A DNA stretch of 40,624 nucleotides, taken from NCBI GenBank assembly GCA_015207195.1, contig JADEXJ010000045.1, positions 1 to 40,624 of the forward strand, written 5' to 3'. This DNA is from Pleurocapsales cyanobacterium LEGE 10410. Lineage in GTDB: Bacteria > Cyanobacteriota > Cyanobacteriia > Cyanobacteriales > Xenococcaceae. The position numbers and the translations under genes were made by a program. Every line of letters starts with the position of its first letter. The first letter of the stretch is position 1. The notes under the pieces are model-generated. The model was not told where the DNA came from, searched no databases, and saw only the letters and a list, made by a program, of their open reading frames with translations. Positions 1,938-36,368 of the stretch are shown here, piece after piece.

Positions 1938-1980
1938 ATTTAAACTCAATATTTTTCTTTTGTCAGTCGATAAAATCTAC
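1938..1980 (-). promoter_or_regulatory. Promoter of the GG-precursor gene (shared 20-nt box family, site A)
   Basis: On the minus strand, GTAGATTTTATCGACTGACA spans 1980-1961. Its last six bases (CTGACA) act as a -35-like element, followed after exactly 17 nt by TTAAAT (1943-1938). Predicted transcription start is near 1931, about 67 nt before the ATG. A second, partial copy of the upstream half (GTTGAATTTTTCGAC) lies about 49 nt further upstream at 2028-2014. The same arrangement occurs at four other places in the window. Confidence 0.65.
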
Positions 1981-2424
1981 ATTCAAAAAAACTTTTTCTA
2001 ATTTGTTTTCAAAAGTCGAAAAATTCAACAACTCAAACAACACTAGTTTGACACTTTTTGTTCTAAAATATAACTACAGATCGGTTGCAGTGCTTACGGA
2101 CTTACTTGCTAAGCCTAATTAATAAGGGTTTTCAGTGATTTTATTCAATAGAAAACTGCAATCAAAAATACTCTGACAACAAACTGTATCGATCGCAACC
2201 AGCCGATTTGTTCAATATTAAAGTCGGCATATTTTTGTTTTTTAACCAGTCAATAAATTTATTTTTTCACAATAGACCTAAGTTGCCTGGCAAAAAGAAT
2301 AGATTTCCTGGTATTGAGCAACAAAATAACTAGCTAACATCAATTAATTTGATCGACCAGGCAGCGTGTTGTACTCAGGCTTCGTATTGTAATCTCACTA
2401 AACTTATTTACAGAATTACTAATC
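1981..2424. other. Divergent intergenic region before HlyD gene
   Basis: AT-rich spacer between the precursor gene (minus) and the HlyD gene (plus). It contains the partial promoter box at 2014-2028 and a short palindrome TTGCCTGGCAA at 2283-2293 that could be an operator for the HlyD gene. No ORF is convincing here. Confidence 0.45.
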
Positions 2425-3780
2425 ATGCTAATCAACCTTGAGACAAAATCTCTCGACGTAAAGCGAGAAGAGGACGTTCTCTGTCCCGTCAATCCAGACG
2501 AATTTTTACCCCGAATTGACTGGTGGATAACTATGGGGGGGCTAGCCTTCCTGGCAATCTTTGGGGCAGCGATCGCTCTTGTTAGCGTTCTTGAATATAA
2601 AGTAACTATTAAAGCTCCCGCTACCGTGCGTCCCGTGGGCGAACTGCGAATTGTTCAGGCTGCTGTGGAAGGAAAAATTGAAAGTATCGAAGTTAGGGAA
2701 AATCAGCAGGTCGAGCGAGGAGATGTAGTTGCTTATATTAATGATTCCCGTCTCCAGACACAAAAAACTCAGCTACAGGGCAACATTAATCAAACTCAAT
2801 TGCAGCTGACCCAGATTGCTTCCCAGCTTGAAGCCACTACCGAGCAAATTGCTGCCGAAACCAGTCGTATTCAGGGGTCTATTGCCTCCACAGTCGCCGA
2901 ACTCAGCCGTGTAGAGCGAGAATATCGAGATAAGCTAGTCACGACAGCATCACAAGCTAAGGAAGCAGAGGCTGCTGTAGAATTAGCCCAAGAAGAAATG
3001 ACTCGCTATCGGCAGTTGTCAGATTCTGGGGCAATTACTCTGATCCAGCTCAAGGAGAAAGAAGCTGCCTATAAAACTGCTGTTGCCAGACTAGAAACCG
3101 CCAATGCAGCCCTCAATCCTAGTCAGGCGGGAATTGAGATCGCCCGACAACAAGTTTTTCAAACCAAAGCTGAAGCCCAAGCTATGCTCGCCACCTTAAA
3201 TAAAGAACGAAAACAACTGATTCAACAGCAAATTGAAGTTCAAAATCAACTCAATCGCGATCGCCAAGAACTGCAACAGGTTGAAACTGAACTCAAAGGT
3301 ACGATCGTTCGCGCTGCTGCATCGGGTATCGTTCATCAATTGAATCTGCGTAACCCAGAGCAAATAGTCAGTCCTGGAGATATGATTGCCCAAATTGCTC
3401 CTAGTGATGCTCACCTAGAAATTAGAGCTTTAGTTGCATCACAAGATATTGACAAGGTAAAGAAGGGTCGCAAAGTACAAATGCGAGTGTCTGCCTGTCC
3501 CTATCCCGACTACGGTACTCTTTCAGGTACTGTCACAGCGATCGCCCCAGATGCCAGCGTTCCCCAAGGCAAACCAGCCAGTGCGGGGGGTACCAACGGC
3601 TCAAACCAGGCTGAATCTGCATATAACGTTACTGTCGTGCCAAACAGTTTATCTTTGAATGCTTCTAGCAAAAGTTGCCAGATTCGCTCTGGCATGGAAG
3701 GTAGAGCGGATATTATTTCTAAAGAGGAAACAGTACTAACTTTTATTCTCCGAAAAGCCAGGTTACTAGTAGATATGTAA
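2425..3780 (+). CDS. HlyD-family membrane-fusion protein of a peptide exporter
   Basis: 451 aa. A short cytoplasmic N-terminus (residues 1-33) is followed by one membrane segment (about 37-57, MGGLAFLAIFGAAIALVSVL). Next comes the first half of a barrel-sandwich (lipoyl-like) domain (VRPVGELRIVQAAVEGKIESIEVRENQQVERGD), a long coiled coil rich in Gln, Glu and Ala (about 110-290), the second half of the lipoyl domain (TIVRAAASGIVHQLNL, PGDMIAQIAPSD) and a beta-barrel C-terminus. This is the standard adaptor that links an inner-membrane ABC exporter to the outer-membrane exit duct. It is divergent from the GG precursor and close to the C39 exporter, so the three are read as one export system. 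The start ATG has only a weak ribosome site. Confidence 0.92.
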   Translation: MLINLETKSLDVKREEDVLCPVNPDEFLPRIDWWITMGGLAFLAIFGAAIALVSVLEYKVTIKAPATVRPVGELRIVQAAVEGKIESIEVRENQQVERGDVVAYINDSRLQTQKTQLQGNINQTQLQLTQIASQLEATTEQIAAETSRIQGSIASTVAELSRVEREYRDKLVTTASQAKEAEAAVELAQEEMTRYRQLSDSGAITLIQLKEKEAAYKTAVARLETANAALNPSQAGIEIARQQVFQTKAEAQAMLATLNKERKQLIQQQIEVQNQLNRDRQELQQVETELKGTIVRAAASGIVHQLNLRNPEQIVSPGDMIAQIAPSDAHLEIRALVASQDIDKVKKGRKVQMRVSACPYPDYGTLSGTVTAIAPDASVPQGKPASAGGTNGSNQAESAYNVTVVPNSLSLNASSKSCQIRSGMEGRADIISKEETVLTFILRKARLLVDM

Positions 3781-4719
3781 CCATGCCTGCAAATAAAGTA
3801 ATCTACAGCGGGAGCGATAGAATGATTGGCGTTGAGTATTATAGGGCAGCAAGGCAAAAACAGTAAACAGCAAAAAGTCGCGATTAATACTTTTTATTTC
3901 CTGGCTAGACGTAACAATAAACTTTTAATCGGCGATTGTTTCTTAAGAAAGCTCTACCAGCTTTTCTTAGATATTCTGACTATCACAAATAGGCGCACTT
4001 TAGTTTTCTAAAATTTATCAATCTACCATGAAGACATAAAGAAATTTAATATGCTATTTGTCGTTTTTATAAGGTACATCTCGATTGTGTTTGATACAGA
4101 AGCAGAGGAAAAAAGCAAAAGAAAAAAGGTCAAAAAGGCTGTGGTTGACGCAACAGAGAATCTCTATAGAGCATTTTTGCTTACTAAAAACTACTTTTTG
4201 GAGTTTTGTCTAACAAACTTAACATGAGTAATTTATAAATATTGTCTTAAGATTCTCGAACATATTCTGCTAGATTTTTATTCATTCTCTTTTGCGTTAG
4301 TTGCCATGAGAATTTATCTATAGATTAGATCGTTTGTTTTGATGAATTTGATGAATTTGATGAATTTTAATAAACTCAATTGTAAAATTGCGCTTTAATC
4401 AATCCCCTAGGGTAAGATAAGTGATATGTTAGTTAACCGTGTATTGTAAGCAGCTGATTCATATATAATCTGGACGTTTATAGATTCGTGCGATCGCGTA
4501 CGAACTAATAGCACATTGTCTGGTATTGCCAACAGGCTAACCAAACCATGTCTTAACACTATAGTATTGAGCGATACTGATTTGTTAAACGTTCAACTGA
4601 TGCCTTTTTGGAAAAATTACGGCTGTACGAACTATAAATTTCAACTTAGTTTTGTGTAACAAAAAACATTTTAGGTTTTGTAGACCTAATCAACAAATTC
4701 GTAAGAGAGTTAGTATACT
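3781..4719. other. Long intergenic region, no supported gene
   Basis: 939 nt, AT-rich. A hairpin at about 3942-3972 (AAGAAAGCT/AGCTTTTCTT, loop CTACC) could terminate the HlyD transcript, although no long T-run follows. A 9-nt tandem repeat (GATGAATTT, three copies) lies at 4341-4367. A 61-codon frame at 3826-4011 starts with TTG, has no ribosome site and looks non-coding. Confidence 0.5.
4341..4367. repeat. Tandem repeat GATGAATTT x3
   Basis: Three uninterrupted copies of a 9-nt unit in the spacer after the HlyD gene. It is a simple-sequence repeat of the kind that changes copy number by slippage; no function is visible. Confidence 0.8.
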
Positions 4720-5010
4720 ATGGCTTTTTTAAAAATTGGCAATATCATCCTTAACACAAATTACATTGCTAGTGTGAAACTAGAGAGCCAAACCTTTAGT
4801 GGAGAAAGAAGCATTTCTATTTTGATCGCTACTCCCAGATTCCCTTTGTTGGCAGGGGCAGATTCAACCTCCCCAGAATTATATCACTACGAATGGCTTC
4901 ATTTTACTGGTAAGCAGGCGCAAGGACTTAGGGACTATTTTAGTAGTTACAACAATGTCATCGACCTGCTACCGCAAGAAGAACCAGAGCAATGTGAAAG
5001 GATCAGATGA
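4720..5010 (+). CDS. Conserved-looking hypothetical protein, 96 aa
   Basis: No known family is recognised. The protein begins MAFLKIGNIILNTNYIASVKLE, a pattern of short beta strands, and has a possible helix near the end (GKQAQGLRDYFSSYNNVIDLL) with an acidic tail. No signal peptide or membrane segment is seen. The sequence just before the start (AGAGTTAGTATACT) is nearly repeated before the next gene, the ParB-like gene at 5278 (AGAGTTAGTATA), so the two may share translation signals. It is a soluble protein of unknown role; the composition and the clean start make it likely to be a real gene. Confidence 0.65.
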   Translation: MAFLKIGNIILNTNYIASVKLESQTFSGERSISILIATPRFPLLAGADSTSPELYHYEWLHFTGKQAQGLRDYFSSYNNVIDLLPQEEPEQCERIR

Positions 5011-6951: not shown

Positions 6952-8727
6952 CTATAAATCGATGTAAATTAATTGGGACAGCCAATTTTCTACCATTTCC
7001 ATAACCTGCTGGTTTTCTGACACTAACGAAATTCGCCAAGTGTGAGCAACCCAATAAAGTACAGAATATTGTAGCTGTTGCTTTGCTTCAACCATCACTT
7101 GAGCTGGATTGACATCAGGATATAAACTGGTGATTTTATGCTCATCCATTCTCTGACAATATCTCAGGTGCAAAATTTCTTGCATTCCAGAATTCAGTTC
7201 TCTAAAAGAAGTCAACAAAACTGTCTGAAACATTTCTTGATAGTATTTCTTTAACCATAACCTGACATATTTTGCCTGCCACTGACCCAACTGTTCCAAA
7301 AGTTCCTCTTGTAGTTTGTTTCTTGCTTGAGCAAGTATTAGCTCAACTTCTTGGGGTTCTCTCAATTGTTGGCTATTCAAGACATCAGCAATATCCGCCA
7401 CGTTCATTTGTTGACTGTAGCGATATTTGAGTATTTTTTGCGCATCACTATCTAAAGCTCGAATAGCCTCAATCAGAATTACATCCAGTAAGTTAGAAAA
7501 TTTGGGGTTAGTAAATCTTTTTTCCAAGAATATTGTCAAATATAATTCAGGATTGATTCGCTCGTTAGCAAACTGTTGAAACTGTTTTAACAGCGGAACT
7601 TCAAAATTTTTATAAATGTAGCGCGAAATCGTTCCCTGATGTACGCCAATTTTATGACCTAACTTTTCTTGATTTAATAACGCAAACCCATGAGAGTAAC
7701 ACAACGGCATAATCGACTGGCGAAATTGCTGAGGAATCTTACTGCGAATTTTGGCAAAACTACCCTCGATTTTTCGAGTTGTTTTTCTCAAGATTAAATC
7801 CGTTTGTTGCAAAAGATCGGCTGATTCTGATTCTTTTATTGACCAGATACTAGATTCGCCGATATACCGCTCATAGCTATCAATCTTACAGGTATCAATA
7901 ATTCTATGGTTATATCGTAGTGCTTTAAGACAAATATTAATCCATTTTTTGATGGTTTCAGGAGACACTTCTCCTCCAGCCGTCGCTTGAAGAGGTGCAT
8001 TGATTGTAAATCTCTGGGAATTATAGAAATTTGCAGCTTCCGCAAAATCTGCTAGTTCTGGTTCGGGCCATCTACTGCCTTCTATTCTCTGAGAATTGTA
8101 AATCCGATTGGTTTTATATACCAAAATAAAGTGCCTTAAGGCAAAAACATAGCGCGATCTCTGGGGTTCTGGTATGCCATATCTTTCTAAAGCTTCTCTT
8201 CTTTTTCTTAAAGCACGATCAAATTTTTTATGACTGTCGATCTCAACATCACACAAAACACGCCAGCTAGACTTTAATTCCAATTTTTCGCGAATGGCAT
8301 TTCTGAGTATACTCAAAATATAAGTTTTAAAGTTGGCACCACTAATATCATGAGCATTATATTTATCAATATGCTTGTAAAATTTGTCTGGTTGAAAAAG
8401 CAGATTGTTAGTAAAATCGTATATTTCTTGAGATTTTGCTATATAAAAAGGAAGCTTACGAAAATTTCTCCAAATTAAATAACACCGATCCAAGTCGAGA
8501 TAAGCTAACAAATGCCAGTAAGCTAATCTTTTTTCTAATTCAGAACGGGAACTATCTCGAATAATTTCCACAAAATAGTTGACCCAGGTAATTTGATCGC
8601 AATTGGGATCGGAGTCTACTAGACAATTTATTCTTCTTCTCAGTTGATTTTGAACCAACGGTCTAAACGGTGGATACCCATTGCGATAATTAAAATCATA
8701 GAATGTATAGAATTTACTAATTTGCAT
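6952..8727 (-). CDS. Divergent sigma-70-like regulatory protein
   Basis: 591 aa, no signal peptide or membrane segment. The pattern resembles a cyanobacterial family annotated as sigma-70-family (group 3-like) factors: a helical N-terminus; a block corresponding to FKTYILSILRNAIREKLELKS followed by DVEIDSHKKFDRALRKRREAL; a second block with FYNSQR and SPETIKKWINICLKALR; then an HTH (NQEKLGHKIGVHQGTISRYIYK, about 352-373). Two region-4-like stretches follow (ALDSDAQKILKYRYSQQMNVADIADVLN and ELNSGMQEILHLRYCQRMDEHKIT). Recognition is from recalled family patterns, so the function is inferred. The start at 8727 follows a GAGAAG ribosome site. A copy of the shared promoter box lies about 350 nt upstream. 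It could act as a sigma factor or as a DNA-binding relative. Confidence 0.7.
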   Translation of the reverse strand: MQISKFYTFYDFNYRNGYPPFRPLVQNQLRRRINCLVDSDPNCDQITWVNYFVEIIRDSSRSELEKRLAYWHLLAYLDLDRCYLIWRNFRKLPFYIAKSQEIYDFTNNLLFQPDKFYKHIDKYNAHDISGANFKTYILSILRNAIREKLELKSSWRVLCDVEIDSHKKFDRALRKRREALERYGIPEPQRSRYVFALRHFILVYKTNRIYNSQRIEGSRWPEPELADFAEAANFYNSQRFTINAPLQATAGGEVSPETIKKWINICLKALRYNHRIIDTCKIDSYERYIGESSIWSIKESESADLLQQTDLILRKTTRKIEGSFAKIRSKIPQQFRQSIMPLCYSHGFALLNQEKLGHKIGVHQGTISRYIYKNFEVPLLKQFQQFANERINPELYLTIFLEKRFTNPKFSNLLDVILIEAIRALDSDAQKILKYRYSQQMNVADIADVLNSQQLREPQEVELILAQARNKLQEELLEQLGQWQAKYVRLWLKKYYQEMFQTVLLTSFRELNSGMQEILHLRYCQRMDEHKITSLYPDVNPAQVMVEAKQQLQYSVLYWVAHTWRISLVSENQQVMEMVENWLSQLIYIDL

Positions 8728-9062: not shown

Positions 9063-9105
9063 ATTTTCGCCTAAATAAGACATTTTGTCTGTCGAAATAA
9101 TCGAC
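9063..9105 (-). promoter_or_regulatory. Promoter box of shared family, upstream of sigma-like gene (site C)
   Basis: Minus strand GTCGATTATTTCGACAGACA (9105-9086) matches the family box at 17 of 20 positions. It ends in the -35-like CAGACA, followed after 17 nt by GAAAAT (9068-9063), a weaker -10. It would start a transcript with a leader of about 320 nt before the sigma-like gene. Confidence 0.5.
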
Positions 9106-10137: not shown

Positions 10138-10180
10138 GTTGATTTTTTCGACTGACAAGATTGAGAAAGTAAGCTTAAAT
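10138..10180 (+). promoter_or_regulatory. Promoter of shared family heading the NUDIX leader (site D)
   Basis: GTTGATTTTTTCGACTGACA (10138-10157) ends in CTGACA and is followed after exactly 17 nt by TTAAAT (10175-10180). Similarity with site E continues through the spacer (both have AAGCTTAAAT). Predicted transcription start is near 10187, leaving a leader of about 600 nt before the NUDIX gene, or a separate noncoding RNA. Confidence 0.65.
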
Positions 10181-10788: not shown

Positions 10789-11325
10789 ATGATTAAACTA
10801 AGTAACGATCGAGGCAACAGCAACAGCTTCCGTACAATCATCAACCCGATCAAAGAATTTGGCAATTTTGCAGCTCGTTTGCACCACTTTGCCAGGTCAG
10901 TGTTGGGTCTTATTTTTCGACATCCCGTCACGGGTACTAATATTATACCTGTTTTAGCAGATGGTCGAATTGTCCTATCTCGACGACGGGATACTGGACT
11001 TTGGGCTTTACCAGGCGGTATGGTTGAATGGGGAGAAGATATTGCTACCACGGTTCGGCGAGAGCTTGCAGAAGAGACGGGGTTAGAATTAATTCGTGTT
11101 TCTCGGTTGGTGGGAGTATATTCTCAACCCGAACGAGATCCGCGAGTTCACTCAATCTGTGTTGTAGTAGAAGCAGAGGTAACAGGAAAAATAGAAATTC
11201 AGGACAAACACGAAATTTGCGAAGTTGAAGCTTTTGAACTCAAGGATCTGCCTTTAACCAGGCTTTCTTATGACAACGAAGATCAGCTTAAGAATTATTT
11301 AGATCAGCTGCTTGTTCTAGCTTAA
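10789..11325 (+). CDS. NUDIX hydrolase
   Basis: 178 aa, soluble. A full Nudix box GX5EX7REUXEEXGU is present: G77, E83, R91-E92, E95-E96, G98 in GGMVEWGEDIATTVRRELAEETG. About 45 N-terminal residues precede the first strand (TGTNIIPVLADGRIVLSRRRDTGLWALPGG). Members hydrolyse nucleoside diphosphates linked to another group; the box does not reveal the substrate. The protein lies just before the FAAL, but nothing links it to lipid synthesis, and it appears to have its own distant promoter. An alternative start within the first 45 residues is possible. Confidence 0.9.
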   Translation: MIKLSNDRGNSNSFRTIINPIKEFGNFAARLHHFARSVLGLIFRHPVTGTNIIPVLADGRIVLSRRRDTGLWALPGGMVEWGEDIATTVRRELAEETGLELIRVSRLVGVYSQPERDPRVHSICVVVEAEVTGKIEIQDKHEICEVEAFELKDLPLTRLSYDNEDQLKNYLDQLLVLA

Positions 11326-11558: not shown

Positions 11559-13402
11559 ATGACTGCTGCGAGCCGAGAATGGCTGGAAAACCAAAACCGA
11601 CCAGCGACAATTATCGAGCTATTGAGTTGGAGAGCTCAATCTCAGCCAGAAAAGATCGCCTATACTTATCTGCGTCATGGCGAAACCGAATCGGGTCAAT
11701 TGACCTATGGCGAACTAGATCGCCGAGCGCGAGCGGTAGCCAACCAGCTACAGCAGCGAGACCCCCCTGGTAGTCGGGCATTACTGCTCTATCCACCAGG
11801 ATTAGAATTTATTGTTGCTTTATTTGGCTGTTGGTATGCAGGCATTATCGCCGTACCTGCTTATCCACCAAGGCGCAATCAAAACCTCTCGCGACTTCAA
11901 TCAATTGTTACCAACGCAAGAGCCTCGGTCGTTCTTAGCACCAGCACCTTGGTCGCCCAAATTCAAAATCGCCTGAACGATCATCGCGATCTTGCAATTC
12001 TCCCCTGGCAGGCAACAGACAGTATTTTCTCCCCGTCCGAGTCCGCTCCCCGTTGGCAGCAACCAGCGATCGCAATATAGCATTGCTCCAATATACTTCT
12101 GGCTCTACAGGAAATCCTAAAGGTGTAGCGATCGCCCATGATAATTTATGGCACAATCTTGATGCCATCTATCAATGTTTTGGTCATCAACCCGACAGCA
12201 GGGGGGTCATCTGGCTGCCTCCCTACCACGATATGGGATTGATTGGCGGAATCCTACAGCCCCTTTACGGCGGTTTTGAAGTTACTTTAATGTCTCCCGT
12301 AGATTTCTTGCAAAAACCCTGGCGTTGGCTTCAAGCAATTTCTCGCTATCGGGCAACTACCAGTGGCGGACCAAATTTTGCTTACGAGCTGTGCGCTCGC
12401 AAAATAACGGAGGAACAGCTTTCTCGTTTAGACTTGAGCAGTTGGGAGGTAGCATTTACTGGTGCTGAGCCAATCAATGCAGAAACTATCGAGCAGTTTG
12501 CTACTGTCTTCGCTCCCTGTGGCTTTCGTCGAGAAGCTTTTTATCCCTGCTACGGTATGGCAGAAACCACCTTGATTGTTTCGGGAGGTTCGACAACCGC
12601 TGCTCCAGTATTGCACTCGGTAAAAGCCAGTTCTCTGGCACAAAATCAAATCGTGGCTGCAAATGGAGAGCAAGATAGCCGTACCGTTGTTGGCTGCGGA
12701 AAAAGTCTAGCGGATCAAACAGTACTTATCGTCGATCCAGAAACCAGAATTGAATGTCCTGAAGACCAAGTTGGGGAAATTTGGGTTGCTGGACCATCCG
12801 TCGCCCGTGGCTATTGGCAGCGTCCCCAAGAAACAGAACAGGCATTTCAGGCCTATCTTGCCGATACTAATGCTGGACCATTTTTACGCACGGGAGATTT
12901 AGGATTTATTAGTGAGGGAGAACTGTATATTACAGGGCGCATTAAAGACACAATCATCATTCGGGGACAAAACCACTACCCCACGGATATTGAGCGGACA
13001 GTAGAAAACAGCCATCCAGCACTAAGACTCGGCTGTGGTGCAGCTTTTGGTATAGAAATCGCTGGTCGAGAACGATTAGTAGTGGTTCAAGAAGTAGAGC
13101 GTTCCTATCTACGCCGACTCGACGATCGAGAAGTAGTGGGACAACTACGTCAGGCAGTGGCAAGCGAGCATGGTTTAGAAGTTTATGCTGCGGTGCTGGT
13201 GAAGACGGGAAGCATTCCCAAAACTTCTAGCGGTAAAATTCGCCGTTATGCTTGTCGGTCTAGTTTCGAGACGGGCAGCTTGAATGTGGTTTCTGACTGG
13301 AGTGAGAATCCCCACGGCAAAGCTGAGTTCGTACACCTGTGGACTCAAACTGAGTCTCTATTAAAGAAACTACAGCCCAGTGAACATAATTCAAATTTGT
13401 AA
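11559..13402 (+). pseudogene. Fatty acyl-AMP ligase (FAAL), interrupted by a frameshift
   Basis: Two overlapping frames together make one FAAL of about 610 aa. Frame one (11559-12080) carries the N-terminus (PATIIELLSWRAQSQPEKIA, LTYGELDRRARAVANQL, GIIAVPAYPPRR) and stops after PRWQQPAIAI. A frame displaced by -1 continues at once with NIALLQYTSGSTGNPKGVAI (the AMP-binding P-loop), FYPCYGMAETTLIVSGG, TGDLGF and the final catalytic Lys in KTSSGKIRRYA, to 13402. Adding one base near 12075 would restore a single frame reading PAIANIALLQYTSG. FAALs activate a fatty acid as acyl-AMP and load it onto an ACP; the ACP at 17706 is the likely acceptor. The start has a good AGGAG. The break may be a real mutation or a sequencing error. 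Confidence 0.88.
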
Positions 13403-14747: not shown

Positions 14748-15299
14748 TTAGCAGATAAATTGCTCTTAACTATAGCCAAAAGCTCACTATAGCCAAAAAA
14801 TTTAACAATGTAGATTGTTTCCACAGACAAAATTGAAGAACCAAGCTTAAATATAATTAGAAAGGGAAAGGAAAGTGAGCCAAAGAGTTCGGTCGTTTTA
14901 ACTCAAGTAAAACACCCAAAAAAAATACAGTTAAGTTTCTATTTGGTGCTGAAGTGGTGCCAACAAATTTTACTTATTGGGTCAAGGTTTGCTAAGAAAA
15001 AACGACGGAGTATAGCCAATAGAACCTGCAAAGATCTGCGGACAAGTGCTTGATGCTTTCAAATAAGTAGCGGAGCTGATGGCGTAAATTTCAACTATGA
15101 TTTTTAAGCTCTATCAGCCGAGTCAAGAGCTAACCCGTAGCGTGGTTGCCCCAGTGTAACCATCGATCGCATCCTTTGACTATTCAATCAATCGAGGTAG
15201 CAGGTTAGATATAGGTGCTTTTTGAATTTAATTAATGTGGGTTTATTTACGCCCATATTTACTACAGTTAACTTTCAGTGTTAAAAGAGGAAACAATTA
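14748..15299 (+). other. Leader region with promoter site E, before the 107-aa gene
   Basis: 552 nt with no ORF. It contains a repeated CTATAGCCAAAA motif (near 14770 and 14788), promoter site E, and the phrases GGCGTAAATTT (15081-15091) and TAACCCGTAGCGTGGTT (15131-15147), both of which also occur in the leader after site D. It is probably a long 5' leader or a noncoding RNA. Confidence 0.4.
14810..14852 (+). promoter_or_regulatory. Promoter of shared family heading the small-gene leader (site E)
   Basis: GTAGATTGTTTCCACAGACA (14810-14829) ends in the -35-like CAGACA and is followed after 17 nt by TTAAAT (14847-14852). The spacer ending CAAGCTTAAAT resembles that of site D. It would drive a leader of about 440 nt before the gene at 15300 and possibly the desaturase genes behind it. 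Confidence 0.6.
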
Positions 15300-15623
15300 A
15301 TGTGGGCTACCGACCCAAAAAGCGGCAAAAAAGTTCGGTTTTATAGTCGCCTAGAAGCTAAAAAAAAACTCGATATCAGTGAAGCCACATTCCATAAATA
15401 CATCAATGTATTAGTTGTTAGCTGGAAAGAAAGATTTCAATACATACCCAAGCAAACTCACTGGAGCGATTATCAAGTTTACTGTCTAAATTTTGTCAAA
15501 CGTTTATTCAAAACGGGACGCAATGAATTAGAAGTTATCAACTACATCCTCCAGTATCAAATACCAGAGCCACTAGAGCCAGAAGATAATTTCAATTCCG
15601 ATAGAGATATTTTAAGCTCTTGA
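15300..15623 (+). CDS. Small HTH-like protein, 107 aa, unknown function
   Basis: The start follows AAAAGAGGAAAC, a clear ribosome site. The N-terminal third reads SRLEAKKKLDISEATFHKYINVL, resembling a MerR- or excisionase-like helix-turn-helix. The middle (WSDYQVYCLNFVKRLFKTGRNELEVINYIL) is helical and the C-terminus is acidic and probably disordered. No family is recognised with confidence. It is the first gene after promoter site E and lies 44 nt before the first desaturase, so a role in controlling the lipid cluster is possible. Confidence 0.65.
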   Translation: MWATDPKSGKKVRFYSRLEAKKKLDISEATFHKYINVLVVSWKERFQYIPKQTHWSDYQVYCLNFVKRLFKTGRNELEVINYILQYQIPEPLEPEDNFNSDRDILSS

Positions 15624-15666
15624 GGAAATCGAAGCTCAGTCAATCAAAATTATCACCAAGAGAGCG

Positions 15667-16632: not shown

Positions 16633-16658
16633 ATCTTAGTTTTTCTCATGAGCTTGCG

Positions 16659-17570: not shown

Positions 17571-17705
17571 AGCAGTTTACAGCAGAGCGACCTTCAGACC
17601 ATGGTACATCGAGGGAATTTCTATTTGCTGTTTGGTTAGGTTTCAACAAAGCGAGCTTTTTATCTTTTTCAAGCTATATCAACAAGAATCAAGGAAGTTG
17701 AGAAC

Positions 17706-17987
17706 ATGGAAATTCAGAAATCTTCAATTGCTAATGAGCAATCCGAACTGCCGACAGCAGTAGAAATTCAGGCTTGGATAGTTTCTTATCTAGGTCAATT
17801 GTTAGAAGTCGATCCAGATAGCATCGACACCGCCACTCCTTTTGACCGTTACGGACTCGATTCTTCGGCGGTCATCGGAATGACTGGCGACTTAGAAGAT
17901 TGGTTAAACATAGAACTCGACCCAACTTTGGTCTATGACTACCCGACTATTGAGGCTTTAAGCCAACATCTAGTCGAGGAATTTTAA
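17706..17987 (+). CDS. Free-standing acyl carrier protein
   Basis: 93 aa. The phosphopantetheine attachment site is Ser53 in RYGLDSSAVIGM, in the usual position for a PKS-type carrier domain, followed by the acidic helix GDLEDWLNIELDP and the VYDYPTIEALSQHL ending. Ribosome site AAGGAAG before the ATG. In FAAL-initiated pathways the ligase loads its fatty acid onto such an ACP, where tailoring enzymes then act on the tethered chain. It is flanked by the desaturases and the dimetal enzyme, both plausible partners. Confidence 0.93.
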   Translation: MEIQKSSIANEQSELPTAVEIQAWIVSYLGQLLEVDPDSIDTATPFDRYGLDSSAVIGMTGDLEDWLNIELDPTLVYDYPTIEALSQHLVEEF

Positions 17988-18008
17988 CTAGACAGACGTT
18001 CGCCGTAG

Positions 18009-18026
18009 ATTCACTGCCCAGTGAAT
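18009..18026 (+). repeat. Short perfect inverted repeat between ACP and dimetal-enzyme genes
   Basis: ATTCACTG and CAGTGAAT form an 8-bp stem around CC, about 20 nt after the ACP stop codon. No T-run follows. It may be an RNA-processing or partial attenuation site in the operon. Confidence 0.4.
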
Positions 18027-18061
18027 GTTAGACCGATACTATTATTCAAACCAGGTATATT

Positions 18062-25400: not shown

Positions 25401-25994
25401 GTTCCCGACCGTGGTTTGCAGCTTCTGGGACAGCTGTTGACCAAAGATTTACCGCGAGTGGGGGTAATGTCTATTGACTGGTCAAAATTCCTGGAGCAAT
25501 TACCCGCTGAAGCCAGATCGCCTTTTTTGGAAAATTTTTACGGAGCAAGGGAGTTGGATTCAACACCAGAACCCGAATTTCTCCAGCAACTAGAGGCAGT
25601 TCCCCTTGCCGAACGTTGGCTGCTGTTGAGAGAATACATTCGCTCGCAGTTAGCTAAAGTCCTGGGCTTAAATTCCCCCGAACAGATCGATCTCCAGCTG
25701 GGTTTTGCCGAATTGGGCATGGATTCCTTGATGGCTGTGGAGTTAAGAAATCACCTCCAAGATAATTTAGGTTGCTCGATTCCTTCAACTCTGGCATTTG
25801 ACTATCCCACGGTAGAAGCACTGGTAGACTACATCGCCCAACTGCTCTCGATCGCTCCTGCTGACAACCTAAATGAGGAAACACCTACTGTAGCCGACCC
25901 AACACCAGCCAGCGATCTAGAAGAACTATCCCAAGCAGAAATTGCCGACCTACTTGCCCGAGAATTAACCGCTATTCAGGAGGAACAAGTTTGA
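19482..25994 (+). CDS. Fully reducing type I PKS: KS-AT-DH-ER-KR-ACP
   Basis: 2170 aa. KS about 3-425 with C172 (DTACSSS), H307 (EAHGTGT) and H347 (NIGHLEG). AT about 520-840 with S621 in GHSLGEY and HAFH, which predicts malonyl-CoA. DH about 895-1165 with H936 and D1106 (HPVLLDAS), although the Gly of HxxxGxxxxP is Gln. Structural half-KR about 1230-1430. ER about 1441-1752 with HSAAGGVGQAAVQ. KR about 1772-1945 with TGGLGALG, Y1920, and LDD in HAAGVLDDG, the mark of a B-type ketoreductase. ACP with S2082. No methyltransferase domain. It would add one fully reduced two-carbon unit to the chain arriving from the ACP. Its stop codon overlaps the next start by one base. Confidence 0.96.
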   Translation: MEPIAIIGIGCRFPHTQNPEEFWHLLRNGVDAISEVPPQRWSIEALYDPQPGITGKMSTKWGGFLEQVDLFEPSFFEISPREAEQMDPQQRLLLEVAWEALENAGIVRGDLAGSQTGVFVGLSNIDYHRMLYQEHDLLSPYSGIGTGPSIASNRLSYLLDLRGPSITIDTACSSSLVAIHLASQSLQRQESNLCLVGGVNLMLSPEPTITFSQARMMAADGRCKTFDAAADGYVRGEGCGVIVLKRLSDALRDRDHIQAIIRGSAVNQDGTSNGITAPNGPSQQSVIRQALANAELDPQQISYIEAHGTGTSLGDPIEIKSLKAVFGKNREPDRPCNIGSVKTNIGHLEGAAGIAGLIKVVLQLKHRQLAPHLHLKQLNPYISLQEVPIDIPTELQSWSSDTTRCAGISAFSFGGTNAHVILEEAPLPIPKTSEIERPLQVLTLSAKSETALVELSQRYRDFLSTHPEASLADICFTANTGREHFNYRLGVVTESREQLEEQLTAFGRGIEAPQLVTGQVRRRKPPKVAFLFTGQGSQYVGMARQLYQTAPCFRQTLDCCQALLSSELERPLLEVLYPNAGDDSPLEQTAYTQPVLFALEYALARLWMSWGVYPTAVMGHSLGEYVAATIAGVFSLESALKLVTARARMMQALPADGAMYAVIAELDTVTEAIQPYSDSVAIAAVNGPQNIVISGKRDAVATIIAELTTRGFKSQQLQVSHAFHSPSMQPMLAEFENLTREITYSLPKIKLISNLTGAEATAEIATPEYWCRHILQPVNFTASMATLARQKYRIFVEIGAKPTLLSLGRRCLGSDRAKPLHWLPSLRPQRSDWQQLLTSLAQLYTEGVPVDWAGFDRDYPRRRISLPTYPFQRQPYWFKTVDCDHSETTSSSWRSPSNQTPDQVHPLLGQRLPSALKEIQFVTQISRDTPGFLQDHQIYQTAIVPATAYLEMALAAGKTVFQTDNLVLEEVVIQQALPLAEGRDQTVQLILSPEETAYSFQVFSLDPESANPESWIAHASGKVSVGEDGDTPQADLATIQAEYIEPVSIKKYYQQFQSRGMEYGSSFQAITQLWQQPSDTALGQIQLPANLASESEKYQLHPVLLDASFQVLGAVFPDEESPDAYLPMKVNRLKLYRRPSSRLWSQVQLQPGKNNKSLSADLCLLDETGIVAHVEGLFLRRVSKNALQRVLQPQAKEDSEDLLYKVAWQPQARSSSAVPTESGSWLLLVDDSEIGTALCQRFEAEGDRCIIVNPGNQYQKADNKYQINPLQAADFKLLLQETSPIKGIVHLWSLSDKSSELSLEALQEAQIAGCGSVLHLVQAIAQAKLTQLPRLWLVTAGSQAIAPGEQLQLQQAPLWGLGQTIALEHPDFHCTCLDLDPNEPRNDSSLFEELYFPEAEQQIAYRRGMRHVARLAKCQPEGVLENGQQPEAFQVKTTRSGILDNLTFQPLKRRQPKSGEVEIQVRAAGLNFRDVLNALGMLEEYAAELGIDSATEIPFGGECAGVVTAIGEGVSHLKVGDEIIAALAIGSLSSFVTVRADFVIAKPQDLSFEAAATISTTFLTAYYGLQYRAQIKSGDRVLIHSAAGGVGQAAVQLAQQAGAEVFATASTGKWDWLRSMGVEHVMNSRTLDFAQEVKNTTQGQGVDIVLNSLNGEFIPKSIDTLGEGGRFVEIGKIGVWSASQVAAKRADISYFPFDLLEVAEQNPGLIAQMLRELMQQFRQGILQPLPHKIFPIAQVVNAFRYMAGAKHIGKVVVSLPAATERELSIQPQSSYLITGGLGALGLKVARWLVEQGARHLVLTGRRDPSTPAQKTLKELEQSGAKILTVKADVAQTADVAKLIERSLAWNSSLKGIIHAAGVLDDGVLQQLNWQQFTKVMAPKVAGAWNLHTATQELPLDFFVCFSSIASLMGSPGQGNYGAANAFLDALSHYRQARGLAGLSINWGPWADIGMAANTQSDRSGWATQGIKPIVPDRGLQLLGQLLTKDLPRVGVMSIDWSKFLEQLPAEARSPFLENFYGARELDSTPEPEFLQQLEAVPLAERWLLLREYIRSQLAKVLGLNSPEQIDLQLGFAELGMDSLMAVELRNHLQDNLGCSIPSTLAFDYPTVEALVDYIAQLLSIAPADNLNEETPTVADPTPASDLEELSQAEIADLLARELTAIQEEQV

Positions 25995-28900
25995 TGAGCG
26001 ACCCAGGTATAGATTATCCAGCTTTGATGAAACAGGCTTTGCTGGAGTTAAAACAAATGCGAGCCAAGCTCAATAACTTAGAAAATGCCAAAACCGAACC
26101 GATTGCTATTGTCGGTTTGGGCTGTCGATTTCCTGGAGCAGCTAACGACCCAGAAAGTTTTTGGCAGCTATTGGAAAATGGTGTTGATGCGATTGGCGAA
26201 GTTCCCACAGATCGCTGGGACATGGATACTTATTACGACCCCGATCCCGATACTCCAGGCAAAATATACACCCGCTATGGTGGCTTTGTCGAACACCCAG
26301 ACGAATTTGACCCGCAGTTTTTTAATATTTCACCCAAAGAAGCTGTCAGTCTCGACCCCCAACAACGGATGTTGCTCGAAGTCAGCTGGGAAGCTTTAGA
26401 ACATGCAGGTGTGGCAGGCGATCGCCTAAGGGGAAGCTCTACAGGGGTGTTTGTCGGCATCTGTAGCAACGATTATTCCCAACGTTTGCTCGCTCAAGAC
26501 CCCACAGAGATCGATGCCTACGTAGGGACTGGCAACTCTCATAGTGTGGCAGCGGGACGTTTATCCTACCTCTTGGGTTTGAACGGACCGAGTTTAGCGG
26601 TAGATACAGCCTGCTCCTCATCGTTGGTAGCGGTTCACCTGGCGGTCACCAGTCTCCGTAACCGAGAGTGTAACTTGGCTCTAGCTGGTGGCGTAAATCT
26701 GATCCTTGCCCCAGAAGTGTCGATCAATTTTTCTAAGGCTCGAATGCTATCTCGCGATGGACGCTGTAAGACTTTTGATGCCACCGCCGATGGCTACATT
26801 CGCGCTGAGGGTTGTGGGGTAATCGCACTCAAACGCCTGTCCGATGCCCTAAAAGACGGCGATCGCATCCTCGCTCAAATTCGTGGCTCGGCGATCGATC
26901 ACGATGGTCGTAGTAGTGGTTTAACCGTTCCCAACGGTCCTGCACAACAGGCAGTAATTCGTCAGGCTCTGGAAAATGCCAGGGTCAAGCCAGAGCAGAT
27001 CGGCTATATCGAAGCTCACGGCACTGGTACGGCTTTAGGGGATCCGATTGAAGTCGGGGCTTTAGCAGGAGTGTTTGCCCAAAATCATTCCCCCGAAGAC
27101 CCCTTGGCGATTGGCTCGGTCAAAACCAATATTGGACATTCCGAAGGAGCAGCGGGAATAGCGGGATTAATCAAGGTAGTACTCACCCTACAGCATCAAA
27201 CAATTCCGCCCCATCTACACTTTAATCAACCCAGTCCCCATATCGACTGGGAACGGCTACCTTTGACCGTGCCGACCAAACCAACAGCCTGGTCTACAAC
27301 CGAGACCCGTATGGCGGGAGTTAGCTCCTTTGGCTTTAGCGGTACTAATGCTCATCTGGTAATTGAAGAAGCACCCCGCTCCGAGGCGGTTCCCAACGAA
27401 GTAGAACGACCCGTTCACCTCCTGACCCTATCTGCCAAAACTGCAACTGCTCTAGAACAGTTAGCCCAACGATATCAAGATTATCTTCAGGCTCATCCAA
27501 ATTTAAATCTGGCAGATGTTTGTTTTACTAGCCATCGCGGGCGATCGCAGTTCGACCACAGATTGAGCATCATCGCAGCTACTCCAACCGAAGCCATTGA
27601 CAAACTGGCTAACTACATCGCAGGACAGACATCTCCTGGGGTGATTGCAGGACGAGTACAGAGTACCACCCCACCTAAGATTGCCTTTCTGTTTACGGGA
27701 CAGGGTTCGCAATACCTCGGTATGGGACGGCAACTCTATCAAACCTCTCCCTATTTCCGCGAGATTATCGACCGCTGTGACGCTATTTTGCGCCCCCTGG
27801 TTTATCCACCCTTATTAGAAATTCTCTATCCCACATCTTCCCACGACTACTCACCAATACACCAAACCGCTTATACCCAGCCAGCTTTGTTTGCTCTCGA
27901 ATACGCCCTGGCTCAGCTCTGGATGTCCTGGGGCGTTCGTCCTACGGCAGTGATGGGTCATAGTCTGGGTGAATATGTCGCTGCGACGATTGCTGGAGTA
28001 TTTAGTCTTGAATCTGCGCTGAAGCTGGTGGCTACTAGGGGACGTTTGATGCAAATGCTCCCAGAAGATGGGGCGATGTATGCAGTAATGGCAGATCTCG
28101 ATACCGTAACTGAGGCAATCCAGCCTTACTCCGAAGAAGTAGCGATCGCAGCGATCAACGGTTCTCATAACGTGATCTCTGGCGATGCCGATTGGCTAGC
28201 GGGGATTGTTAGCAATTTGACCGCCCGTGGGATCAAAACTACTCGGCTACAGGTATCTCATGCTTTTCATTCACCTCTGATGAGACCAATGCTAGAAGAG
28301 TTTGCAGCTGTGGCTGCTGAAGTTAGCTATTCGACTCCCAAGATCGAGCTGATTTCTAACTTAACTGGAGCTAAAGCCACCGCAGAAATTACCACCCCCC
28401 AGTATTGGTGTCGCCATCTGCTCCAGCCCGTCAACTTTGCTACTAGTATCCAAACTCTAGCAAGTAAAGGCTATCGAGCATTGGTGGAAATTGGAGCCAA
28501 GCCCACCCTGCTTTCGATGGGTCGTCAATGTTTGGCAGATGATCAAAGCAGTAACGATCTACAGTGGCTGCCCAGTTTGCGCCCCAAACGTGCCGATTGG
28601 CAGCAGCTTTTGACCAGTTTGGCGCAGCTACACGCTAGCGGTGTCTCCGTTGACTGGTCTGGCTTTGAGCGGGATTATTCTCGTCAAGTCGTGACTTTAC
28701 CAACTTACCCTTTTCAGCGTCAGCGTTATTGGCTGGGAAGCGATCGCCATCACCGACAACCAAACCCCACTACCGAATCATCTCAATCTGCTAAAGCTCC
28801 CAAACAATCTTTAATAGACCCTGAGAAAAAACGCGCTGAAATCTTACAAGCCAACCCCGAACAACAGCAAAAGCTCTTAAAAGATTATTTCGAGCAACTC

Positions 28901-29932
28901 TTAAACCGAGTAATGGGACTTCAGGCATCCCAACTGGATTGGCAACAACGTCTTTTTGATCTGGGATTAGACTCTTTGATGGCAACTGAGTTGAGAAGAC
29001 AGCTGGAAGACAATCTGGGGATTAAAGTACCAGTCGAATTTCTTGCCGAACTAAGTATCAAACAGTTTGTCGAACATATTGTAGTTCTACTTCAGCAGCC
29101 AGAAGGCAAACCATCGTCCTCTGTTCACTATCCTGCTAGTCCACAGCACGTTACTAACGCCAATCAGACAAATAATTCCGATCCTGCTCTTTGGATCGCT
29201 CGTCCCCAACCCAATCCTCAGGCTAGCATTCGTCTGTTCTGCTTTCCCTATGCTGGAGCGGGAATTTCCTGTTTTCGTTCCTGGACCAAGCATCTAGCCC
29301 CAGAAATAGAGGTTTGTCCGATTCAGTTACCAGGTAGGGAAAATCGCCGTCAAGAAGTTCCTCTAACCAGAATGAAGTCGGTAGTTCAAACCCTTGCTCC
29401 GATGCTTCGTCCCTATTTAGATCAGCCCTATGCTTTTTTCGGACATAGTATGGGAGCAATGTTATGTTTTGAATTGGCACGAGAACTGCGACGACGGAAT
29501 TGGCAGCAGCCTTCTCACCTGTTGGTTTCTGCCTGTCGCGCTCCCCAAGTCCCAGATCTCGCTCCGCCTCTTCACCGCCTGCCAGAGGTTAAGTTCTTAG
29601 AAAAGCTGAAAAATCTTAAGGGAATTCCCGAAGAAATTCTAGCAGGTCCGAAGCTGATGCAGCTATTTCTGCCAACTTTACGGGCTGATTTTGAGCTATT
29701 AGAAACCTACTTTTATCTCAATGAACAACCTTTTGACTTTCCGATTACGGCTTTTGGTGGCTTAGCCGATAACAAAGTCAGCATCGAAGAACTCAATGTT
29801 TGGCGCGAGCAAACCAAGGCTGAGTTTAACCTGCAAATGTTTACTGGCGATCATTTCTTTTTGCACACCAGCAACCGCGAACTATTGCCAGAGTTAGCAC
29901 AGCAATTGCAAAAACTTTTAATTCTTAACTAA
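25994..29932 (+). CDS. Type I PKS: KS-AT-ACP-thioesterase
   Basis: 1312 aa from the ATG that overlaps the preceding TGA; a TTG one codon earlier is less likely. Residues 1-35 are a helical docking region (LMKQALLELKQMRAKLNNLENA). KS about 36-460 with C207, H342 and H382. AT about 555-870 with S657 and HAFH (malonyl-CoA). ACP with S994 (LGLDSLMA). Thioesterase about 1085-1300 with S1152 (GHSMGAM), D1259 and H1287. No reducing domains, so it leaves a beta-keto thioester. The TE resembles the stand-alone editing (type II) thioesterases (LFCFPYAGAG, PIQLPGRENR) rather than typical terminal ones. The type III PKS gene follows 17 nt later, which suggests that the beta-keto chain is handed to it. 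Confidence 0.95.
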   Translation: MSDPGIDYPALMKQALLELKQMRAKLNNLENAKTEPIAIVGLGCRFPGAANDPESFWQLLENGVDAIGEVPTDRWDMDTYYDPDPDTPGKIYTRYGGFVEHPDEFDPQFFNISPKEAVSLDPQQRMLLEVSWEALEHAGVAGDRLRGSSTGVFVGICSNDYSQRLLAQDPTEIDAYVGTGNSHSVAAGRLSYLLGLNGPSLAVDTACSSSLVAVHLAVTSLRNRECNLALAGGVNLILAPEVSINFSKARMLSRDGRCKTFDATADGYIRAEGCGVIALKRLSDALKDGDRILAQIRGSAIDHDGRSSGLTVPNGPAQQAVIRQALENARVKPEQIGYIEAHGTGTALGDPIEVGALAGVFAQNHSPEDPLAIGSVKTNIGHSEGAAGIAGLIKVVLTLQHQTIPPHLHFNQPSPHIDWERLPLTVPTKPTAWSTTETRMAGVSSFGFSGTNAHLVIEEAPRSEAVPNEVERPVHLLTLSAKTATALEQLAQRYQDYLQAHPNLNLADVCFTSHRGRSQFDHRLSIIAATPTEAIDKLANYIAGQTSPGVIAGRVQSTTPPKIAFLFTGQGSQYLGMGRQLYQTSPYFREIIDRCDAILRPLVYPPLLEILYPTSSHDYSPIHQTAYTQPALFALEYALAQLWMSWGVRPTAVMGHSLGEYVAATIAGVFSLESALKLVATRGRLMQMLPEDGAMYAVMADLDTVTEAIQPYSEEVAIAAINGSHNVISGDADWLAGIVSNLTARGIKTTRLQVSHAFHSPLMRPMLEEFAAVAAEVSYSTPKIELISNLTGAKATAEITTPQYWCRHLLQPVNFATSIQTLASKGYRALVEIGAKPTLLSMGRQCLADDQSSNDLQWLPSLRPKRADWQQLLTSLAQLHASGVSVDWSGFERDYSRQVVTLPTYPFQRQRYWLGSDRHHRQPNPTTESSQSAKAPKQSLIDPEKKRAEILQANPEQQQKLLKDYFEQLLNRVMGLQASQLDWQQRLFDLGLDSLMATELRRQLEDNLGIKVPVEFLAELSIKQFVEHIVVLLQQPEGKPSSSVHYPASPQHVTNANQTNNSDPALWIARPQPNPQASIRLFCFPYAGAGISCFRSWTKHLAPEIEVCPIQLPGRENRRQEVPLTRMKSVVQTLAPMLRPYLDQPYAFFGHSMGAMLCFELARELRRRNWQQPSHLLVSACRAPQVPDLAPPLHRLPEVKFLEKLKNLKGIPEEILAGPKLMQLFLPTLRADFELLETYFYLNEQPFDFPITAFGGLADNKVSIEELNVWREQTKAEFNLQMFTGDHFFLHTSNRELLPELAQQLQKLLILN

Positions 29933-29949
29933 ATAATCGACAAATCATC

Positions 29950-31071
29950 ATGACTTATATTGTTGCTACATCCACTGGATTTCCCACCCAATATTACCCC
30001 CAGCAGGTACTTGCCACGGCACTGCAAAAGTATTTCCTGGCAATGGAACTGGAATTCGATCTCCAGATTATCGAGCGTTTTTTCACCAACGTCGCGATTG
30101 ACGGACGCTACTTTGCCTTTCCCCTAGACTCCTTTTATGATCCACCAGGATTTGGTACGATCGCCAATGCAGCCATCGAAACCAGCGTCGATCTGCTCAA
30201 GGGAACTATCGGCAAATTGTTAGAGCGAGCAGAATTAGAACCCCAGCAAATCTCACAATTAACCTCGGTCACCCTAACTCCTGCCGTCCCCTCCCTCGAT
30301 GTTCGGCTGATGAATCAAATTCCCTTTGCCAACAATATCAACAGAATGCCTTTGTGTGGCGTAGGCTGTATGGGGGGAGCTTTTGGTTTGGCAAGAGCAG
30401 CAGAATATCTTGAGTGCCGACCGACCGAAGCGTCAGTTTTGTTTGCGATCGAGCTTTCTTCCTGTCTATGGCAAGGTTCACTGCAACGAGATTTGTACAC
30501 CCTAATCAAGCAACTGCCTGAAGATCCCTCACAATATACCAATATCATTATGGGGATCGTTACTGCTGCTTTATTTGGCGATGGTTCGGGTGCAGCGTTG
30601 ATGGTCGGAGACGATCACCCCCTAGCCCAGCCAGGACAACCGCGAGTTATTGATAGTTGCTCGATTATGCTCCCCAATACCGTCCAGTTGATGGGGATGG
30701 ATTTAGTCGATACGGGTACGCGAAATATCCTCAGACCAGAAGTATCCGACCATGTAAAAGTCGGACTACGGCAGGCACTCGATCCCCTGCTAGAGAAACA
30801 CAACATCTCCACCGATAAGATCGCTCGCTGGATCGTTCATCCAGGGGGACCAAAAATTATCCAGGCGGTCGAAGACGAGTTTGCTCTTCCCGATACGGCG
30901 CTCCAGCCCAGTCGCGATGCCCTAGCAAAAATCGGTAATATTTCTTCTCCCACAGTCCTCTATATCTTAGACCAGGTTCTATCGGGAGAACAGCCTCCTT
31001 CAGGTTCTTACGGTCTATTGATTGCTATGGGTCCTGGGTTCTGTCAAGAGGCAATTTTACTCCAGTGGTAA
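29950..31071 (+). CDS. Type III polyketide synthase (chalcone-synthase family)
   Basis: 373 aa. The catalytic triad is visible: C140 in GVGCMGG, H297 in IVHPGGPKII and N330 in GNISSPTVL. The C-terminal GPGFCQEAILLQW is the usual ending. Bacterial relatives extend a fatty-acyl starter with malonyl-CoA and cyclise it to alkylresorcinols or alkylpyrones. Here the starter is most likely the chain made by the two modular PKSs. Placement before two methyltransferases resembles SrsA-SrsB and BpsA-BpsB, where the ring product is O-methylated. Resorcinol or pyrone cannot be chosen from sequence alone. Confidence 0.93.
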   Translation: MTYIVATSTGFPTQYYPQQVLATALQKYFLAMELEFDLQIIERFFTNVAIDGRYFAFPLDSFYDPPGFGTIANAAIETSVDLLKGTIGKLLERAELEPQQISQLTSVTLTPAVPSLDVRLMNQIPFANNINRMPLCGVGCMGGAFGLARAAEYLECRPTEASVLFAIELSSCLWQGSLQRDLYTLIKQLPEDPSQYTNIIMGIVTAALFGDGSGAALMVGDDHPLAQPGQPRVIDSCSIMLPNTVQLMGMDLVDTGTRNILRPEVSDHVKVGLRQALDPLLEKHNISTDKIARWIVHPGGPKIIQAVEDEFALPDTALQPSRDALAKIGNISSPTVLYILDQVLSGEQPPSGSYGLLIAMGPGFCQEAILLQW

Positions 31072-35627: not shown

Positions 35628-35707
35628 GTAGAGCTGGATGCTGCTGGGCAGATCGACGAGACTCAATTGGGTTTTATAAAATTCAAGCCAAGTCTTTAAA
35701 AAAGTCT

Positions 35708-36292
35708 TTAAATCACTGTAGCCCCTTGATTAATCAGCCCATTGAGAGTAACTGGATCGATTGCTGAGATTGACTCAGATATTTCTGGCGAGATCGAGGC
35801 TATTTGTCCGCGAATCTCTCCTTCAGGATTGCCAACGGTACCAATACTAACGTAAAGGTCGGATATCTGGGGCGAGCCAGTTTCACTTGTCGTTGCTGCT
35901 GCACTGTTCAATCCAGGAACAAAAGTACTCAAGGGAATATTAGCTAAATCTGATTCTTCCCAGATGCCTGAAATAGTCGTCGAACCATCGGGATTGGCCG
36001 TAAAGATTAGGTCATCATCCCCATTCCCGTCAACACCAACCACACCAAAAGCCAGATCCCCTACTTCTCCAATCGGAGCATTACCAAAATTGATTCCCGT
36101 AACATCATCAGCCGTATCCTCCGTTTGGGGAACTCCCTCGCCGATATATGCTCCAAAATCTAAACCAACAACAGTCAGATCGTAGGTCAAAGCTCCAGTT
36201 TCGTCAAAGCCCAAAGCAATTGTTCCTGAAGCTGACGAACCGCTATCGGCAGGAACTTGTTGGTCGCCTGTTAATATTGTGCCAAAAACCAT
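35708..36292 (-). CDS. CHRD-domain protein
   Basis: 194 aa. The N-terminus MVFGTILTGDQQVPADSGSS, the ALTYDLTVVGLDFG strand pair and the late EGEIRGQI phrase identify a CHRD domain, a beta-rich fold found in extracellular or surface proteins. It is rich in Asp, Gly and Ser, low in Lys, with no Cys and no N-terminal signal peptide. The C-terminal tail ends SAIDPVTLNGLINQGATVI, compatible with an uncleaved C-terminal export signal, though this is not proven. It is convergent with the peroxidase (81 nt between stops). Its promoter region carries a close copy of the shared box (site B). Confidence 0.85.
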   Translation of the reverse strand: MVFGTILTGDQQVPADSGSSASGTIALGFDETGALTYDLTVVGLDFGAYIGEGVPQTEDTADDVTGINFGNAPIGEVGDLAFGVVGVDGNGDDDLIFTANPDGSTTISGIWEESDLANIPLSTFVPGLNSAAATTSETGSPQISDLYVSIGTVGNPEGEIRGQIASISPEISESISAIDPVTLNGLINQGATVI

Positions 36293-36325
36293 CTTTTTAT
36301 ACTGTTATTTTTTACATTTAAAGTT

Positions 36326-36368
36326 ATTGAAACATAGTTATTTGACTTTGTCGGTCGAAAAAATCTAC
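36326..36368 (-). promoter_or_regulatory. Promoter of the CHRD gene (shared family, site B)
   Basis: Minus strand GTAGATTTTTTCGACCGACA (36368-36349) differs from the site A box at two positions. CCGACA is followed after 17 nt by TTCAAT (36331-36326). Predicted transcription start is near 36319, about 27 nt before the ATG. Confidence 0.6.

Follow-up and report, generated by a model that had tools for sequence, protein, structure and literature searches.

Five promoter-like blocks in a 40,624-nucleotide (nt) stretch of the genome of Pleurocapsales cyanobacterium LEGE 10410 (contig JADEXJ010000045.1, positions 1 to 40,624; hereafter the window) are likely to be promoters of a pathway-specific regulon under a sigma-70-family protein whose gene lies at 6952-8727, within a polyketide and peptide-export cluster. 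Judged by their conservation across related genomes, the blocks are real, conserved promoters of one regulon. An earlier note on this DNA had described a 20-nt box followed at a fixed distance by a -10-like hexamer and proposed promoters recognised by one factor. That proposal is supported by the copies being unique in the genome, by co-occurrence with a sigma subfamily among 388 genomes, by the joint conservation of box, spacer and -10, and by the orientation of the sites toward mostly the same kinds of genes.

Each block is 43 bases long. Block 1 (1938..1980, minus strand; box 1961-1980, 17-nt spacer, -10 TTAAAT at 1938-1943) precedes a gene for a double-glycine peptide, and block 2 (9063..9105, minus; box 9086-9105, -10-like GAAAAT at 9063-9068) precedes the sigma-like gene itself. 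On the plus strand, block 3 (10138..10180; box 10138-10157, -10 TTAAAT at 10175-10180) stands before NUDIX and AMP-ligase genes, and block 4 (14810..14852; box 14810-14829, -10 TTAAAT at 14847-14852) before genes for a 107-amino-acid (aa) protein, desaturases, a carrier protein, a CylC-like protein and polyketide synthases (PKSs). Block 5 (36326..36368, minus; box 36349-36368, -10 TTCAAT at 36326-36331) ends with its -10 33 nt from the start of a CHRD gene. All five boxes, with the positions, strands, exact 17-nt gaps and hexamers first reported for them, were recovered from the window sequence; in the same order, they differ from GTAGATTTTTTCGACTGACA by 1, 3, 1, 3 and 1 mismatches. The box is absent from 100 dinucleotide shuffles of the window, and a search of the whole genome (6,644,688 bases in 392 contigs, up to 3 mismatches) returned the window's five sites and nothing else, while a reversed control pattern gave 1 match.

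The box and its sigma subfamily

Searches for the sigma-like protein covered 388 genomes of the order and the 27 genomes returned for the family. Close relatives (61-67% identity) were found in G268, G263 and G238, in the last of these in pieces at contig ends, and together with the window's own genome (G000) these genomes make up the close group. The two G238 fragments (L106 2-772 and L107 2986-3300) overlap in the stretch of protein they encode, which may mean that this genome has two close-group sigma genes. Among the 388 genomes, again at up to 3 mismatches, box counts are highest in G263 (13), G238 (9), G268 (8) and G284 (7), followed by G000, G235 and G381 with 5 each; the remaining genomes have at most 4, and 167 of the 388 have at least one. 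The reversed control shows a similar low background, mostly 0-3 per genome, with 10 in G021. Because the box was defined from the window's genome, the independent evidence lies in the other three close-group genomes, which are the top three of 387 by box count (chance 1e-7). Eleven other genomes of the window's genus, lacking a close sigma relative, have 0 or 2 boxes.

Spacer and -10 are conserved along with the box. The close-group genomes hold 35 boxes, to which a matrix search adds one (G238 C181). The motif set has 30 distinct sites, identical ones being merged and G263 C142:60930 and G238 C15:3060 excluded; the spacer and -10 scoring, the complementarity, GACAA and TTNAAT counts and the motif scan of distant loci described below also exclude G263 C124:101245. 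When each site was scored on its spacer, -10 and three further bases only, with its own genome left out, 28 of 30 were positive, the negatives being G268 C251 and C458. None of 32 background boxes from other genomes was positive (best score -2.2; loci L040-L070 and L074, a part of the other-genome matches). Two sites with no locus in the main scoring, at G263 C187 and C262, have matrix scores of 47.4 and 34.2; in the search that added G238 C181 and in the scan of distant loci, matrix scores include the training sites. On these comparisons, motif and sigma subfamily are conserved together, as for a cluster sigma of the AntA kind.

The motif built from the 30 sites reads GTNGATTTTTTCNACNGACAAA, a weakly conserved spacer, then TTNAAT. 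Its -35 side is long and partly palindromic (GTNGA-N5-TCNAC-NGACAAA), GACAA is present in 29 of 30 sites, and the gap from GACAAA to TTNAAT is 15 nt. No paper on this motif was found in literature judged by title and the start of the abstract, which is not proof of none; among papers on the box strings there was no cyanobacterial match by title, and a 17-base string had no match.

The downstream genes, called unrelated in the earlier note, instead fit one polyketide and peptide-export cluster. Most sites point at a gene, and where sites are orthologous so are the genes they face. NUDIX and AMP-ligase genes lie behind a site in all four genomes (the NUDIX reading frame is short in G238), the double-glycine peptide in G000, G263 and G238 (two tandem copies), the 107-aa protein and desaturases in G000, G268 and G238, the carrier protein and CylC-like protein in G268 and G263, CHRD in G000 and G268 (with a short CHRD-like start in G268 C508), and PKS in G263. 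Other sites precede genes for beta-propeller-repeat proteins (two in G238 by Pfam, two similar by eye in G263), lysozyme-domain and HlyD proteins (G238), a subtilase (G263 C135), and 185-aa and 237-aa proteins with no known role (G263 C188 and C262). Upstream of the sigma gene a box stands in G000, G268 and G263, the three genomes in which the gene's start is assembled, and in G238 a weaker site points to the contig end where the gene is expected. This arrangement suggests autoregulation. Sites with no clear target are those at G263 C187, C142 and C124:101245, G238 C67 (first open reading frame (ORF) of 62 aa, with a larger one after 757 nt), and G268 C251 and C458 (where the first ORFs come after 303 and 507 nt). 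At G238 C52, near-identical box copies have been duplicated along with the peptide gene.

The 591-aa sigma-like protein (6952..8727, minus) is, by structure prediction, an extracytoplasmic function (ECF)-like sigma-70 protein with a duplicated region 4. Both region 2, for core binding and -10 recognition, and region 4, for -35 recognition, are predicted in it: region 2 at about residues 45-160, a central stretch resembling the helix-turn-helix (HTH) family HTH_3 at 351-371, and tandem region 4 domains at 408-480 and 494-566. Region 4 lies only 0.1 bit above the Pfam cut-off. Among solved structures compared by sequence, the best match is 6pmi FliA (E 0.007), and the C-terminal part alone gave nothing useful against them. 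In structural comparisons spanning region 2 and region 4 the root-mean-square deviation was 14-29 because the linker is not modelled, and the domains were therefore judged apart. No anti-sigma family was found in the two sizeable neighbours (the ParB-like protein and its half-copy), the small ORFs having been scanned in part. A plasmid collection holds one relative, at 30% identity and annotated as hypothetical.

Under the proposed mechanism, region 2 would read the -10 TTNAAT, one region 4 would read GACAAA 15 nt upstream of it, and the second region 4, the central HTH or both would read the upstream GTNGA-N5-TCNAC. The sigma would activate its own gene through block 2, giving a positive-feedback switch for one product system, and would activate the double-glycine peptide and exporter through block 1, the acyl-activating operon through block 3, the desaturase, carrier and PKS operon through block 4 and the CHRD protein through block 5.

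A distant sigma group and competing readings

More distant relatives of the sigma (37-47% identity, and two partial ones at 42-50%) form a group separated from the close one at 100/100 (three and ten proteins). In G227 a distant-group sigma is followed by DUF1822, CHAT/CHASE2 and DUF928 genes. Among the other window genes tested, the single one with a relative near distant-group sigma genes is HlyD, in G358. The survey of upstream regions covered the distant sigma genes other than those at L024-L026 (G032, G074, G152), and an element GCATAA-N15-CCCAATAA (up to 1 mismatch; one gap of 14) lies upstream of 9 of 12, the exceptions being G380, G361 and G258. It also occurs at three of four further loci (a fragment in G120, G240 and G377, not G362). 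No close-group motif scored above 8 at distant-group sigma genes in 13 loci, and repeat finding in nine distant-group loci gave, among its five largest listed families, mostly repeats that were long or coding. The two groups share a geometry, with 15 nt between the -35 (GACAAA or GCATAA) and the -10 (TTNAAT or CCCAAT). Even members of about 30% identity (G240, G377) carry the GCATAA type, so GCATAA is probably the ancestral form and the window's a derived one.

In G258 this element stands before a mersacidin/lichenicidin-type lantibiotic precursor (NCBIfam); in G227, G380 and G358 it stands before peptides that by eye look like precursors, and in G362 before NHLP exporter subunits. Other copies precede genes with no known role. 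Such positions, in some cyanobacteria, may point to a sigma family that serves secreted peptides. At L169 8014-8280 (minus), L168 and L111 the element stands before lantibiotic-type precursors and NHLP exporters. With up to 1 mismatch it occurs in 4-22 copies in each of 34 genomes, and its exact form in 105 of 388. Its support is its position beside sigma genes and exporters. In the window an exact GCATAA-N15-CCCAATA lies at 33719-33746 (plus), ending 114 nt ahead of the first start codon read in a peroxidase gene.

Several observations weigh against a regulon read by this sigma. TTNAAT is present in only 22 of the 30 sites. At the sigma genes the box is kept, while the -10 side is TTAGG then an A-rich hexamer, off-consensus in all four genomes; this may be a weaker or differently controlled promoter. 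The sites at G268 C251 and C458 (L163 2642 and L164 949, both minus) have the box and a shared AACGGAGGGG, with a TATAAT-like hexamer further down in place of the usual -10. For the protein, region 2 falls below the Pfam cut-off, the full-length model is weak (mean predicted local distance difference test score, pLDDT, 56), and only the best of five region 2 models is good (73.8 down to 45.5). GCATAA copies show just a weak excess in the 13 genomes with a distant-group sigma (mean 15.2) relative to the 16 without any (10.8), uncorrected for genome size. The window's own genome has no distant-group sigma yet holds the 33719 element, so the GCATAA element may serve more than one sigma. One region 4 is known to contact less than the 20-22 nt of the conserved box, so part of it may be read by another protein, and all four close-group clusters have retained a ParB-like gene.

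A bolder form of the regulon reading, to which we give clearly less than even odds, is a sigma that carries its own activator: tandem region 4 domains, with the central HTH, in one 591-aa polypeptide would read an extended, partly palindromic -35 of about 22 bp, giving one cluster a private promoter language within a wider family that would control secreted peptides and exporters in several cyanobacteria and whose subfamilies would have rewritten the promoter and kept the spacing. It is conceivable, and to us rather unlikely, that a separate dimeric activator binds GTNGA-N5-TCNAC and recruits polymerase with the cluster sigma, or works with it. The candidates would be the ParB-like protein (5278-6654) and the small HTH-like proteins (13380-13709, 15300-15623). 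A dimer would suit the complementarity of positions 1/15, 2/14, 4/12 and 5/11 in 28-30 of 30 sites, the conserved ParB-like gene, and the distant-group promoters, which by eye lack the upstream part though their sigma has tandem domains. It sits poorly with pair 3/13, complementary in 7 of 30 sites only, and with the ParB-like relatives (51-60% identity) in 34 genomes outside the close group, which have 0-3 boxes each (mean 0.6). The close-group ParB proteins are a group of their own at 66-73%, so these box-poor genomes weaken the ParB candidate without fully excluding it.

In another reading the blocks would be ordinary promoters, equipped with an activator box, of the housekeeping sigma or of one from group 2, and the sigma-like protein would not be their factor. 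CTGACA-N17-TTAAAT does resemble a sigma-70 -35/-10 pair. Sigma-70 promoters are known to need A as the second base of the -10 hexamer, whereas that base is T in 24 of the 30 distinct sites; moreover, the box excess tracks the close-group sigma, and the sigma gene has its own box wherever its start is assembled. We regard this reading as improbable. Finally, a dispersed or mobile repeat lying near genes by chance, which could draw on the near-identical copies duplicated with the peptide gene in G238 C52, is rejected with hardly any reservation: the similarity of the four orthologous block 3 promoters begins at the box, runs out a few tens of bases downstream of the -10 and hardly extends further on either side, an end to conservation that speaks against such a repeat. 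Across sites the shared part comprises the box, the spacer, the -10 and the next few tens of bases, with differing flanks, and most sites face genes, orthologous to orthologous. The earlier note had named a longer dispersed repeat as one of the outcomes that would overturn its promoters, and this footprint is not of that kind.

Genes and leaders of the cluster

Behind block 1, the double-glycine leader-type peptide (1565..1864, minus; NEAAETISGG, leader type by eye) is the first gene, and similar peptides (51-55% identity) lie behind the same box in G238 and G263; it matches no NCBIfam family, and its Pfam match is sub-threshold only. The next sizeable gene, cut by the window end, encodes a peptidase C39 and ABC exporter (1..861, minus; PF03412, PF00664). 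An ORF at 9491-10033 resembles the C-terminal half of the ParB-like protein, and the full and half copies occur in all four close-group genomes.

The NUDIX gene (10789..11325, plus; PF00293) is the first after block 3, followed by an AMP-binding, fatty-acyl-AMP-ligase-like enzyme (11559..13402, plus; PF00501, PF23024; named by eye). The ligase lies in two overlapping frames, and the matching parts form one frame in G263 and G268; this is either a broken gene or an assembly error. Block 4 is followed at 15300..19417 (plus) by genes for the 107-aa protein, two desaturases (one domain-tested at 15667-16632, the second named by eye), the carrier protein (17706-17987) and the AurF/CylC-like protein (18062-19417; AurF match below cut-off, the name CylC-like by eye), and at 19482..31071 (plus) by genes for two type I PKS proteins and a type III PKS-like (chalcone synthase/DpgA-like) protein. 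The two small HTH-like proteins are so named by eye or from sub-threshold matches. The gene after block 5 encodes a CHRD-domain protein (35708..36292, minus; PF07452), and the window also encodes a methyltransferase, an animal-type haem peroxidase and an HlyD protein. The cluster presumably resembles cylindrocyclophane and alkylresorcinol clusters, and the name CylC-like carries the same presumption.

The two long leaders noticed earlier are present, at 608 nt after 10138 and 447 nt after 14810. The latter is particular to the window, which has about 320 extra bases (about 14945-15270) that lengthen it relative to the 128 and 121 nt of the two relatives compared; a second copy of these bases was not found in the window's own genome, and their internal inverted repeats are short only. 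The leader after 10138 is long in three relatives too (304-653 nt), its sequence mostly not conserved. An RNA element in the leaders was considered and rejected: the window has no Rfam family at gathering score, the 10138 leader is mostly unconserved, and the extra bases explain the 14810 leader.

Comparison with known systems

If the proposed regulon holds, a single gene would be the candidate for turning such a cluster on, and its targets could be listed from sequence alone by means of the motif. Two surveys of cyanobacterial CylC-type and type III PKS clusters contain neither the word sigma nor the word promoter in their main text. The close and distant subfamilies would amount to a natural experiment in joint sigma and promoter change. 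It has also been doubted in print whether cyanobacterial sigma-like proteins in which region 2 or region 4 cannot be recognised function as sigma factors; the passage concerned names K.1, K.3 and L.1, not J.1 (PMC11119718). Our protein bears on that doubt: region 4 is all that Pfam recognises in it, a region 2 is predicted, and the promoter pair fits. The protein shows the pattern of the J.1 'r4-only' cyanobacterial sigma-70 family (Gevin 2024, PMC11119718), Sigma70_r4 alone passing the Pfam cut-offs, and differs in its structurally predicted region 2 and in having a proposed -10/-35 pair.

Neighbourhoods of ECF sigma, DUF1822 and caspase-like genes, some with CHASE2, have already been described (PMC8195603). 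The distant-group operon of G227 is of this kind, whereas the window's sigma belongs to a polyketide cluster and none of those genes is in the window. In Nostoc punctiforme, the SigJ regulon is likewise marked by a promoter motif of an alternative cyanobacterial sigma, the J-Box, described as an extended -10 (GGGaAtacT) with a weak -35 (PMC6495340). The strong part of the window's motif is instead its -35 side, GGGaAtacT is not seen by eye at the -10 of the five blocks, and we reject identity with the J-Box as a different motif.

The nearest parallels come from actinomycetes. MibX, the ECF sigma of the microbisporicin cluster, is reported to activate its own gene and other cluster operons through GAACC-N15-GCTAC (PMC4973701). 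It shares with the window a cluster-encoded sigma, one motif present at several cluster operons and at the sigma's own gene, and a 15-nt gap, and with the distant group a lantibiotic theme; it differs in having an anti-sigma, MibW, and in a motif that, as printed, has no long palindromic upstream part. Sigma-AntA is an orphan sigma of the antimycin cluster whose subfamily is described as occurring only in producers and whose promoter elements are highly conserved (PMC3933326); the window's sigma resembles it as an apparently orphan cluster sigma with subfamily and promoter elements conserved, while sigma-AntA acts in an actinomycete, on the cluster's antG and antH promoters. By analogy, the proposed regulon most likely works like those of MibX and sigma-AntA, and would be distinguished by its long, partly palindromic -35 side and its cyanobacterial polyketide setting.

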